DNA from: Pseudomonas fluorescens
GTDB taxonomy: Bacteria > Pseudomonadota > Gammaproteobacteria > Pseudomonadales > Pseudomonadaceae
Assembly (NCBI RefSeq): GCF_001623525.1
Contig: NZ_CP015225.1
Span: 3,224,001-3,288,000, forward strand
DNA: 64,000 bases
Reading direction: 5' to 3'
The notes beneath the pieces were generated by a model. The model made no database searches. It had not been told where the DNA came from and was given only the letters and a program-made list of their open reading frames with translations. The position numbers and the translations under genes were made by a program. Shown here in pieces: positions 36,347 through 47,421 of this stretch; the stretch's first letter is position 1; every line of letters starts with the position of its first letter.

Positions 36347-36468
36347 TGTGGCGAGGGAGCTTGCTCCCGCTGGCCTGCGAAGCAGGCCTCTGCATTTTTT
36401 CAGCCGGACCGCATGATCCGATTTTGCGACTGCTGCGCAGCCGAGCGGGAGCAAGCTCCCTCGCCACG
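36347..36468. repeat. REP doublet (REPIN-like), GTGGCGAGGGAGC type
   Basis: Inverted pair with a longer spacer than the copies at 2439 and 7192. It lies between the convergent AbrB and ung genes, where it may act as a shared transcript end. Confidence 0.82.
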
Positions 36469-39228: not shown

Positions 39229-39282
39229 TTAACAAATTCCGTGCAGGAGTCATCACAGGTTCGCGGCACCACAATTTGCAAT

Positions 39283-39384
39283 GGCTGACTAGGGTTCCGG
39301 CTCGCCTCTGGCGAGTGACTGGTCCGAGAGTTGGCGACCTCCAGTTGAGGTTACACGGCGGGACAAAAGCCCGGGAGACAAGCC
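39283..39384 (+). promoter_or_regulatory. guanidine-I (ykkC) riboswitch
   Basis: The conserved blocks occur in order: CTAGGGTTCCG, ACTGGTCCGAGAG, ACACGGCGGG and AAAAGCCCGGGAGA, with GGCT/AGCC closing the outer stem and a GCTCGCC/GGCGAGT hairpin between the first two. This class binds guanidinium and turns genes on. It is 55 nt before the first gene of the guanidine operon. The following GC-rich segment could form the expression platform; I did not fold it. Confidence 0.93.
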
Positions 39385-43627: not shown

Positions 43628-43740
43628 GCGCAGTGATGTTTGGAAATTTCGCCACCTGGGACGACCCCGGCGGCCATCGAAAACTGCGGGACGGCCCGCA
43701 TCCCAATTCAGGCAGACCTGCATGCCTGAGGGGTAATGCC

Positions 43741-46700
43741 ATGTTCGAAAAAATCCTGATTGCCAACCGTGGCGCCATCGCCTGCCGCATCTTGCGGACC
43801 CTGCGCGAACTGAAGGTCCAAGGTGTCGCGGTGTATTCCCAAGCCGACGCCGCCAGCTTGCATATCCTCCAGGCCGACGAAGCCCACTGCCTGGGCGAAG
43901 GCGCGGCGGCCGGTACTTACCTGGCGGTGGACAAGCTTTTGGCGATTGCCAAAGGCAGTGGCGCGACCGCGATCCATCCCGGCTACGGCTTTCTCTCGGA
44001 AAACGCAGCCTTCGCCGAAGCCTGCGAAGCGGCCGGTATTGCCTTCATCGGTCCGACGCCAGAGCAACTGCGTGTGTTTGGCCTCAAGCACACCGCCCGC
44101 GATCTAGCTCGGCAACACGGCGTGCCGCTGCTCGAAGGCACCGAACTGCTCGACAGCCTCGACGCCGCACTGTTGGCCGCAACCCGGATCGGTTATCCAG
44201 TGATGCTCAAAAGCACCGCCGGCGGCGGCGGAATCGGCATGCGCGTGTGTCGCAGCGCCGCTGAGCTGAGCGAATCCTTCGAAGCTGTGAAGCGCCTGGG
44301 CCAGAACAACTTCAGCGATGCCGGAGTGTTCATCGAGAAGTACATCGAACGCGCACGGCATCTGGAGGTACAGGTGTTCGGCGACGGCCAGGGCCAGGTG
44401 ATCGCCCTGGGCGTGCGCGACTGCTCGGTGCAACGGCGCAACCAGAAAGTCCTCGAGGAAACCCCGGCGCCGAACCTGCCCGAGGGCATGGCCGACGAAC
44501 TCTGCGCAGCGGCGATCCAACTGGCCCAGGCCGTGAACTACCGCAGCGCCGGCACTGTGGAGTTCGTGTTCGACAGCGACGCGGGGCGCTTCTATTTCCT
44601 GGAAGTGAACACCCGCCTGCAAGTGGAGCATGGCGTCACCGAGCAGGTCTGGGGCGTGGACCTGGTGCGCTGGATGGTGCAATTGGCGGCCGGTGATTTA
44701 CCGCCACTGAACGAGCTGGGCCAAGGTTTGAAAGCCGAGGGCCACGCGATACAGGCGCGCCTGTATGCCGAGGACCCAGGCCGGGATTTCCAGCCAAGCC
44801 CAGGGCTGCTGACCGCCGTGAAATTTCCCCAGGCCGACGGCAAAGCACTGCGCATCGACACCTGGGTCGAGGCCGGTTGCCAGATCCCGCCCTACTTCGA
44901 CCCGATGATCGCCAAGGTCATTCGCTGGGCGCCGACCCGCGAGCAAGCGCGCCTGGGCCTTTATCAAGCACTGGATGAAAGCCTGCTGTACGGCGTCGAG
45001 ACCAACCGCCAATACCTGCAACAAATTCTCCTCGACACACCGTTTGCCAGCGGCCAGCCCTGGACCCGCTGCCTGGAGGCGTTGGTCTATCGAGCCAACA
45101 CCGTCGAAGTGCTCAGCCCAGGCACCCAGACCAGCGTCCAGGACTATCCCGGCCGCCTCGGTTATTGGGCCGTGGGTGTACCGCCGTCAGGGCCGATGGA
45201 CAGCCGTTCGTTGCGCCTGGGCAATCGCCTCTTGGGCAACGAAGAAGGTGCGGCGGCATTGGAAATCACCATGAACGGGCCGCTGCTGCGTTTTAACTGC
45301 GCCGCCCGAGTGACGGTGACCGGTGCGGTGATTGCCCTCACGCTCGACGGTGAAGCGGTGCCGATGAATACACCGTTGTCGATTGCTGCCGGCGCCACCC
45401 TCGCGATCGGCAATATCTCTGGCGCCGGGGCACGCAGTTACCTGTGCCTGCAAGGCGGCGTGCAAGTGCCGGATTACCTGGGCAGTAAAAGCACCTTCAC
45501 CCTCGGCCAGTTTGGCGGCCACGGCGGACGAGCGTTGTGTACCGGCGACGTGTTGCACCTGACACCGCTGGATGAGCACACGACACTGCCGCCAACCAGC
45601 GCACCGATCCTGGAACTGCCGAGCGTGCGCCAGATCCGCGTGATCTACGGCCCCCACGGCGCGCCCGAATATTTCACCGAGCGCTACATCCAGACCTTCT
45701 TCGACACGGCCTGGGAAGTGCACTTCAACTCCAGCCGCACCGGCGTGCGCCTGATCGGGCCGAAACCCGAGTGGGTCCGCGCCGACGGCGGCGAGGCCGG
45801 GCTGCACCCTTCCAATATCCATGACAACCCCTACGCCATCGGCGCCGTGGACTTCACCGGCGACATGCCCGTCATCCTCGGCCCCGACGGCCCGAGCCTG
45901 GGCGGTTTCGTCTGCCCGGTGACGGTGATCGAAGCGGACCTCTGGCAGTTGGGGCAACTCAAGGCAGGGGACAAGGTGCGATTCGTGCCGGTGGATATAT
46001 CGACCGCCCGCTCACTGGCGACACACATCCCTTGTGGCGAGGGAGCTTGCTCCCGCTCGAATGCGCAGCACTCGCCAGACAATGGTCCTACCGATAAAGA
46101 GTTGGGGCCGCTTCGCGACCCAGCGCGAGCAAGCTCGCTCGCCACAGGTTCTGGGTGCACACAGAAATGGGGGTCGCCTGTGGTATTGGATATCGGCCAG
46201 GACGATACCCGCCTGGTGGCAAGGCTATCTGGCGACACCCACCTGCTGCTGGAAATCGGCGCCCCCGAACTGGACCTGGTGCTGCGCTTTCGCGCCCACG
46301 CCTTGATGCAAGCGTTGGAACACAAACACCTGCCCGGCGTGATCGACCTGACGCCGGGCATTCGCTCGCTGCAAGTGCACTACCAACCCGAGCAATTACC
46401 CCTGGCCGATCTACTGTCCATCGTCGCCGGGGAATGGGACGCCGTGTGCGCCGCGCAAGACCTGCAAGTGCCGTCGCGCATCGTCCATCTGCCATTGTCC
46501 TGGGACGATCCGGCTTGCCAACTCGCCATCGAAAAATACATGACCACGGTGCGCAAGGACGCGCCCTGGTGCCCGAGCAACCTGGAGTTCATCCGGCGCA
46601 TCAACGACCTGCCCAACCTCGATGAGGTGCAACGCACCGTGTTCGATGCCAGCTACCTGGTGATGGGTCTGGGGGACGTCTACCTCGGCGCGCCGGTCGC

Positions 46701-47421
46701 CACGCCGCTCGACCCGCGCCATCGCCTGGTAACCACCAAATACAACCCGGCCCGCACCTGGACCGCGGAAAACTCGGTAGGCATTGGCGGCGCCTATATG
46801 TGCGTGTACGGCATGGAAGGCCCGGGCGGCTATCAGTTCGTCGGGCGCACGTTGCAGATGTGGAATCGTTATCGGGACGTCGCCGCCTTCGACGGCAAGC
46901 CGTGGCTGCTGCGGTTTTTCGACCAGATCCGCTTCTACCCGGTCAGCGCCGATGAACTGCTGCGCATCCGTCGGGACTTCCCCCTGGGCCGCTTCGACCT
47001 GGCGATCGAGCACAGTCAGCTCAATCTCGCTGAATACCAGCGTTTCCTGGCGCAGGAGGCTGACAGCATCGCTGCGTTCCGTCACCAGCAACAACGCGCC
47101 TTCGAGGCCGAGCGCGAGCGTTGGATCGCCAGTGGCCAGGCGCACTTCGACAGTGAAGAGCCGGCCATCGCCCCGAGCGAGGATTCGCCGCTGACTGACG
47201 GTCAACTGAGTGTCGACAGCCACATCGCCGGTAACCTCTGGCAGGTCCAGGTGGAGGTTGGCGCTCGGGTCGCCGCTGGCGATGTGCTGGTCATCCTGGA
47301 GTCGATGAAGATGGAAATCCCGGTGCTGGCACCCGTGGCCGGCGTGGTACGCGAGGTGCGCGTGCAGCCCGGTTCGGCGGTGCGCGCCGGACAGCGCGTC
47401 GTGGTGCTGGAACGTGACTGA
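43741..47421 (+). CDS. biotin-dependent guanidine (urea) carboxylase containing an in-frame REP insertion
   Basis: 1226 residues from the ATG at 43741 (MFEKILIANRGAIACRILRT). Domains: biotin carboxylase ~1-450 (ATP-grasp loop GGGGIGMRV near 160, EVNTRLQVEHGVTE near 290); KipA/AHS2 ~455-760; a REP-encoded stretch ~765-802; KipI/AHS1 ~810-1040; biotinyl domain at the C-terminus with ESMKMEI, Lys1190 biotinylated. Urea-carboxylase-type enzymes of this riboswitch-linked group carboxylate guanidine. Homologues have a short linker at the AHS2/AHS1 junction; here it is lengthened by the repeat. It has no stop, so the protein may be functional. Confidence 0.9.
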   Translation: MFEKILIANRGAIACRILRTLRELKVQGVAVYSQADAASLHILQADEAHCLGEGAAAGTYLAVDKLLAIAKGSGATAIHPGYGFLSENAAFAEACEAAGIAFIGPTPEQLRVFGLKHTARDLARQHGVPLLEGTELLDSLDAALLAATRIGYPVMLKSTAGGGGIGMRVCRSAAELSESFEAVKRLGQNNFSDAGVFIEKYIERARHLEVQVFGDGQGQVIALGVRDCSVQRRNQKVLEETPAPNLPEGMADELCAAAIQLAQAVNYRSAGTVEFVFDSDAGRFYFLEVNTRLQVEHGVTEQVWGVDLVRWMVQLAAGDLPPLNELGQGLKAEGHAIQARLYAEDPGRDFQPSPGLLTAVKFPQADGKALRIDTWVEAGCQIPPYFDPMIAKVIRWAPTREQARLGLYQALDESLLYGVETNRQYLQQILLDTPFASGQPWTRCLEALVYRANTVEVLSPGTQTSVQDYPGRLGYWAVGVPPSGPMDSRSLRLGNRLLGNEEGAAALEITMNGPLLRFNCAARVTVTGAVIALTLDGEAVPMNTPLSIAAGATLAIGNISGAGARSYLCLQGGVQVPDYLGSKSTFTLGQFGGHGGRALCTGDVLHLTPLDEHTTLPPTSAPILELPSVRQIRVIYGPHGAPEYFTERYIQTFFDTAWEVHFNSSRTGVRLIGPKPEWVRADGGEAGLHPSNIHDNPYAIGAVDFTGDMPVILGPDGPSLGGFVCPVTVIEADLWQLGQLKAGDKVRFVPVDISTARSLATHIPCGEGACSRSNAQHSPDNGPTDKELGPLRDPARASSLATGSGCTQKWGSPVVLDIGQDDTRLVARLSGDTHLLLEIGAPELDLVLRFRAHALMQALEHKHLPGVIDLTPGIRSLQVHYQPEQLPLADLLSIVAGEWDAVCAAQDLQVPSRIVHLPLSWDDPACQLAIEKYMTTVRKDAPWCPSNLEFIRRINDLPNLDEVQRTVFDASYLVMGLGDVYLGAPVATPLDPRHRLVTTKYNPARTWTAENSVGIGGAYMCVYGMEGPGGYQFVGRTLQMWNRYRDVAAFDGKPWLLRFFDQIRFYPVSADELLRIRRDFPLGRFDLAIEHSQLNLAEYQRFLAQEADSIAAFRHQQQRAFEAERERWIASGQAHFDSEEPAIAPSEDSPLTDGQLSVDSHIAGNLWQVQVEVGARVAAGDVLVILESMKMEIPVLAPVAGVVREVRVQPGSAVRAGQRVVVLERD
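46033..46146. repeat. REP doublet (REPIN) inside the carboxylase coding region
   Basis: Inverted GTGGCGAGGGAGCTTGCTCC unit and a GCGCGAGCAAGCTCGCTCGC unit about 114 bp apart. Read in the gene's frame it encodes Cys/Gly/Ser/Arg-rich residues without a stop. All other copies in this window are between genes. Confidence 0.9.

Follow-up and report, generated by a model that had tools for sequence, protein, structure and literature searches.

REPINs of changing class in the domain linker of a Pseudomonas carboxylase: a probable permissive coding niche

Within a stretch of 64,000 nucleotides of Pseudomonas fluorescens DNA (the window), the gene encoding a urea/guanidine carboxylase contains a complete REPIN, running from GTGG to CCAC, that consists of two inverted REPs of class PF17 and is read through in frame. 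Comparison of 209 linkers leads us to consider it probable that the tether between two carboxyltransferase domains of this enzyme is a permissive coding niche that harbors REPINs and lets others overwrite them, subject to a filter on the reading frame. An initial annotation had recognized the doublet and taken it for a one-off insertion into a linker of the ordinary kind, perhaps a case of a repeat becoming protein. The insertion proved not to be singular: REPs are found in the linkers of all 29 closest loci (that of the window included), mostly of classes other than PF17, and comparison with close homologues thus finds REP-bearing linkers rather than ordinary linkers free of REPs. The idea of a repeat becoming protein was only half right, as the putative peptide follows the turnover of repeats in the DNA and not selection on the protein.

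The features of the window are given in Table 1. The encoded protein matches the family TIGR02712 (urea_carbox) over its full length with 1911.8 bits, against a curated cut-off of 1303.85, and its frame is open without a stop across the insert, as the initial annotation had it. The 21-nt REP pattern matches at 46034-46054 (+ strand, no mismatches) and at 46125-46145 (- strand, 2 mismatches), and in the whole window it has 9 matches, compared with 0 in 100 shuffled sequences. The two REPs form a single inverted pair, with arms of 48 nt that are 75% complementary, and both arms can be assigned to REP class PF17 (Nunvar 2013), having the GTRG start and the imperfect palindrome. The doublet is therefore real. 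It was also rightly placed at a domain junction, since CT_A_B stops at residue 751 of the scanned protein and CT_C_D begins at residue 829. A predicted structure of the 607-residue CT region (mean pLDDT 56.4, pTM 0.48) has values below 50 in the linker (residues 310-356) and likewise in much of the rest of the model, so the model was left out of the evidence. When the insert peptide was searched against its own genome, 81 matches were obtained in dozens of other places, a few of them being other carboxylase domains.

Table 1. Coordinates of the carboxylase gene, its repeats, and neighboring riboswitches in the window.
Feature	Position	Strand	Remarks
Guanidine-I riboswitch	39278..39379	+	upstream of transporter-like genes
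Guanidine-II riboswitch	43653..43699	+	41 nt ahead of carboxylase start codon
Urea/guanidine carboxylase gene	43741..47421	+	1226 aa; ATG at 43741; frame open across insert
Linker CT_A_B to CT_C_D, as extracted for comparison	45994..46242	+	249 nt
PF17-class REPIN (GTGG...CCAC)	46034..46145	+	112 nt
Left REP, PF17	46034..46057	+	0 mismatches over 24 nt
Right REP, PF17	46122..46145	-	2 mismatches over 24 nt
Candidate degenerate remnant, older GTGGGAG-type REPIN end	46156..46173	+	from alignment; inferred in window; exact (CTCCCACAGGG) in L027 and L049

The surroundings of the gene are compatible with an operon for the use of guanidine, guanidine being the putative substrate as judged from the neighboring riboswitches (the transporter-like genes were named by eye from the listing of open reading frames). 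It may be remarked that two distinct classes of guanidine riboswitch occur in this one region.

The linkers compared come from two sets of loci. A scan of 398 genomes of the genus detected the upstream domain in 217 at a threshold of E 1e-90, and the 130 best-scoring of those places (30 including the window's own and the next 100) make up the genus sample; the named set consists of the best 80 loci of the named-locus scan. One locus lacking the downstream half (L026) was left out, giving 129 genus-sample and 80 named linkers, 209 altogether, of which 194 are distinct. The genus sample is skewed to close relatives, and one genome may occur in both sets. REPs were called with 22 published classes at a threshold of 2 mismatches, and flanks of equal length were searched at a threshold of 5.

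By this measure, 105 of the 129 genus-sample linkers and 36 of the 80 named linkers contain a REP of some class. Exact class REPs are present in 78 and 28 of them, respectively, and inverted REP pairs (5 mismatches or fewer) in 99 and 35. The equal-length flanks of all 209 loci contain no REP, even at 5 mismatches, and chance similarity, considered as an explanation of the repeats, was rejected on account of these flanks and the shuffled sequences. A measure independent of class, the presence of inverted stems of at least 12 bp, gives 108/129 linkers against 2/129 and 8/129 flanks in the genus sample and 41/80 linkers against 1/80 and 3/80 flanks in the named set. The 80 named loci, each up to 10 kb in length, hold 75 REPs (at most 2 mismatches) outside the gene and none in the gene outside the linker. 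No class REP was found in the 13 enterobacterial and betaproteobacterial rows, whose linkers are 165-180 nt long; one of these linkers (L107) has a 14-bp stem.

The reading frame is maintained in 208 of the 209 linkers, which have lengths that are multiples of 3 and contain no stop. The sole out-of-frame linker (L212, from a single-contig genome) contains a stop, and it possibly represents a decaying gene or an error. REPINs of the PF8/PF8 type within the gene are 87 nt long in 8 of 8 cases, all 8 having a common ancestry; among the places listed in the genomes of two of those strains, the length is a multiple of 3 in 36 of 106 copies (60 leave a remainder of 1 and 10 a remainder of 2). In two linkers (L049 and L128), the REPIN has been reduced to one palindrome and is still in frame, the copy in L049 lying beside the remnant of an older REPIN. 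The 420-nt linker of Pseudomonas viridiflava isolate p4.B4 (L060), with five REP matches (at most 2 mismatches), is open throughout. Elements of class PF17 are frequently readable, since 48 to 67 of 90 PF17 REPINs from the window's own genome, depending on the frame, are free of stops.

The class of REP changes often among related linkers. On a tree made from the flanks, the class of the 5' REP requires 59 changes among the 98 rows that have a 5' REP with at most 1 mismatch, and the REP superfamily requires 28 among 194 rows. This tree (194 rows, 807 columns) is a local one, built by a quick method from the columns next to the linker and supported by SH-aLRT only, and interspecies transfer of alleles can therefore look like turnover in these counts. 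Linkers with PF17/PF7 have 5' features in common and yet are scattered on the tree: seven rows need seven changes, at least three of which well supported branches make unavoidable. Such a pattern would be expected if turnover chiefly reflected species swapping entire linker alleles by homologous recombination, rather than movement of REPINs within a genome, an alternative that we regard as doubtful. Differences between close pairs are centered on the REPIN. In four pairs (L035/L147, L034/L147, L167/L169, and L038/L164), for example, the flanks diverge by 2.9-4.3%, and the REPINs differ in class and in length (87 vs 75 nt) with the frame preserved. More broadly, 338 pairs have a flank divergence of 10% or less (the pairs overlap and are not independent), and the class differs in 275 of them and is the same in 63.

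The linker also tracks the genome in which it resides. Its class is the commonest of the four tested in the genome in 31 of 40 genomes, compared with a mean of 10.1 after shuffling and no value as high in 10000 trials; the 40 were picked from 129 for having a clear linker class, only four classes were counted, and kinship inflates the test. Linkers of class PF14 match the top class of the genome in 3 of 10 genomes, and those of other classes do so in 28 of 30. Both the tracking and the centering of differences on the REPIN speak against exchange of whole alleles, although the kinship of hosts and alleles weakens both points.

The initial capture appears not to have been a single event. In 148 linkers the first REP lies on the + strand, and for 101 of these it begins at +43 or +46 nt. 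Classes starting with GTGGGAG or GTAGGAG are mostly found at +43/46, +58, or +28, those of the PF17/PF7 type start at +40, and a set of 12 linkers uses a different frame for the REP (+44, +59). It might be argued from the nearly constant onset, and from some loops that look related across classes, that a single ancient insertion became domesticated and has since done no more than drift and mutate, with point mutations in situ giving rise to the REP classes. That history is very improbable, considering that the two arms are usually of the same class, that lengths jump (87/75 nt) in close pairs, that the linker class tracks the genome, and that other repeats altogether occupy the site in some loci (L194/L195 and L072/L086/L206). 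One of these repeats, the non-REP palindrome TTCCCACGCTCTGCGTGGGAA, fills the linker of L195 in frame and extends that of L194 beside a REPIN. The genomes of L194 and L195 have 63 and 93 exact copies of it, respectively, often arranged in inverted pairs; the genome of the window has 28, and a fourth genome lacks exact copies. Another, CTCTCCC/GGGAGAGGG, falls outside the listed REP classes and is found in the linkers of L072, L086, L109, and L206 (with different letters in L068), where it encodes peptides of the SPLP...GEG and QPSP types; extra copies of its core lie close to the gene in L086 and L109. Two more linkers without a listed REP class (L084 and L112) show inverted pairs built around GGGGCGAATTCATTCGCC that perhaps belong to a further REP-like family.

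Traces of former occupants may be preserved as well. When 8 PF17/PF7 linkers were aligned, the sequence 3' of the element was found to match the end of a GTGGGAG-type REPIN, exactly in L027 and L049 and partially or poorly in the other 6, which include the window. The PF17 copy in the window may therefore adjoin what is left of an older REPIN, to judge from the alignment. Bertels and Rainey (PMC3116915) reported that REPINs had been excised in population reads and that the footprints covered only part of the element, which is compatible with remnants of this sort.

How does the linker compare with sites outside genes? At one extragenic site (site A, window 36348-36467, with orthologous sites in L307-L336), 26 of the 30 loci, counting that of the window, carry a REP; among the four that lack one, two offered no more than 150 nt to examine. 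The REP at site A lies about 17 nt beyond the last sense codon in 21 loci, its position being kept and its class changing between genomes. A second site (site B) has a REP in 5 of 8 loci, again including its own, and on this showing the linker may be more steadily occupied than some extragenic sites, the comparison resting on two sites only. The linker resembles site A in position, class changes, and occupancy, to which it adds a reading-frame filter, and it is for this resemblance that the permissive niche was adopted as the preferred explanation.

Other cases of REPs within genes were sought by a test of codon usage, which recognized 33 of 37 linker REPs and hence can miss cases. No in-frame, in-gene REP cluster was found among 44 in the flanks of named loci, 26 in pieces of the own genome, 8 in the window, 137 over 800 kb of its genome, and 29 in relatives, amounting to 234 distinct clusters (9 own-genome duplicates and 1 from a relative having been removed and 10 edge cases left out). 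The statement that the other REPs of the window are extragenic is in accord with this result, as the 8 further clusters fail the test that the carboxylase copy passes. PF17 REPs are thus mainly extragenic, as is usual for the family, and the copy in the carboxylase is the exception to the 137. For five same-strand cases in the 800 kb, and for two others from relatives, coding signal is present on either side, the frames being different. Twenty other places in the genome that match the insert peptide were considered and rejected: their frames are open, G+C by codon position is mostly of the non-coding kind, and none passed the in-gene test. Rare cases elsewhere do exist, since 14 of 1067 REP 16-mers in strain SBW25 are reported to overlap genes (PMC3116915).

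Selection on the enzyme contrasts sharply with selection on the insert. The REPIN has a pN/pS of 0.825 over 36 disjoint close pairs (1.43 in the arms and 0.69 in the loop), and the two flanks have 0.054 and 0.051; the pairs were chosen for recognizable REPs and a linker divergence below 25%, which favors conserved arms. These values (0.83 against 0.05, in round figures) indicate that purifying selection acts strongly on the enzyme and hardly at all on the insert peptide, in keeping with the view that the peptide is unlike its flanks and the linker tolerant, though the value in the loop leaves weak constraint on the peptide possible. The strong selection on the flanks also argues against an artefact of assembly or annotation, as do PF17 linkers in other assemblies (including the single-contig G268 and G205) and in protein records P0001-P0007. 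Misassembly is common at repeats, and even so an artefact is scarcely credible here.

Synonymous divergence is 0.057 in the REP arms as compared with 0.33 and 0.26 in the flanks, pointing to sameness at the level of DNA or RNA. The hairpin predicted for the window has a folding energy of -71.8 kcal/mol (z -5.8), and in predictions for 141 loci, REP-bearing linkers have a median of -76.7 against -56.3 kcal/mol for flanks. Perhaps, then, the REPIN is kept for a function, its hairpin in the mRNA slowing ribosomes between domains to allow folding, or tuning expression, with changes of class that preserve the hairpin. Greater stability of folding and alike arms are what a functional hairpin would show, and the linker is occupied in 29 of 29 closest loci against 26/30 and 5/8 at the extragenic sites. 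The stability, however, follows from being a REPIN, for which reason function receives a minor share, and site A has similar occupancy and recognizable arms. Moreover, none of the 13 enterobacterial and betaproteobacterial rows has a class REP, nor do Pseudomonas linkers such as L073, L078, L079, and L197; the REPIN of L049 has collapsed, and the linkers of three protein records (P0063, P0064, and P0073) are short and without REP peptide. All told, a kept function seems improbable. We attach a similarly small likelihood to a variant in which the segment evolves in concert with extragenic repeats since the hairpin is useful, lineages re-fitting the current class of REPIN as a translational spacer that separates the two carboxyltransferase domains. 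If that were true, selfish DNA would be a renewable functional part of the carboxylase gene.

The permissive niche could be maintained as follows. The tether joining the carboxyltransferase halves would tolerate changes in length and sequence, and REPINs and other short palindromic repeats would have been captured there on several occasions within Pseudomonas. Once resident, REPINs would behave as at an extragenic locus, whole elements being lost, collapsed, or replaced by a class abundant in the genome. The agent may be mobilization of REPs by a RAYT-type enzyme or conversion of one repeat by another, aided by allele exchange between species. The window's genome contains 1188 PF17-type REPs at no more than 2 mismatches (0 with the reversed pattern as control), a high copy number, and a single match to Y1_Tnp (C1:6267609-6267926) with PF17 REP pairs on either side; we infer that this gene is of RAYT type and the mobilizer of PF17 REPs. 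At the linker, an extra rule would apply, selection for an intact reading frame free of stops. With replacement of REPINs and selection for frame acting together, the linker peptide would be near neutral and largely set by the repeat population of the genome. What sequence comparison shows fits this scheme: the occupied linkers, the turnover of classes and their tracking of the genome, the preserved frame, the relaxed constraint on the peptide, and the similar extragenic control. Under it, replacement would occur by a step of one of the kinds just named, the peptide would be produced, and the enzyme would function normally.

The site would then amount to a natural, many-times-repeated experiment on the entry of mobile palindromic DNA into a coding region. 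It records repeat families under a frame filter in more than 100 genomes, so that insertion, replacement, and decay of REPINs can be studied at one place, and it suggests that selfish DNA can dictate the sequence of a protein linker. Linkers of this kind should be flagged as misleading for alignments and domain annotation.

Urea carboxylase of K. lactis (3va7) and urea amidolyase (5i8i) have the same domain order and junction; compared at the protein level, they have 42 residues between the aligned blocks, and the query has 62. The repeat itself is like the REPINs described for fluorescent pseudomonads (PMC3116915; classes PF1-PF22, Nunvar 2013, PMC3686654) in its PF17 sequence and inverted doublet, in its hundreds of copies, and in having that REP on both sides of a RAYT-type gene. 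It differs in that those are described as mainly extragenic, whereas the carboxylase REPIN is a coding segment at a site held across much of the genus. Rickettsia palindromic elements (as described in PMC3733652) are likewise palindromic repeats in frame within protein genes; they have another tag and belong to another family, and the carboxylase is the only such gene among the REP clusters assessed here. The CGTC-tagged end of those elements and of CGTC REPs is lacking, the element beginning with GTGG, so it works like a Rickettsia palindromic element without being one. A search of openly licensed full text found no report of REPs within a urea or guanidine carboxylase. Closest are the intragenic GTAG/CGTC REPs of Di Nocera 2013 (PMC3733652), which are reported in frame within real genes, with linkers or loops proposed as tolerant, and which include different REPs at about the same recB site in two Xanthomonas species. 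The present case is alike in all these respects, and to what is described there it adds the following of one site over 209 loci and through many classes, together with the tracking of the genome by class, measurements of pN/pS, and controls at extragenic sites. In-frame intragenic REPs are themselves already known; what we claim as new is a coding site that is genus-wide, occupied by many classes, and tracks the repeats of the genome.
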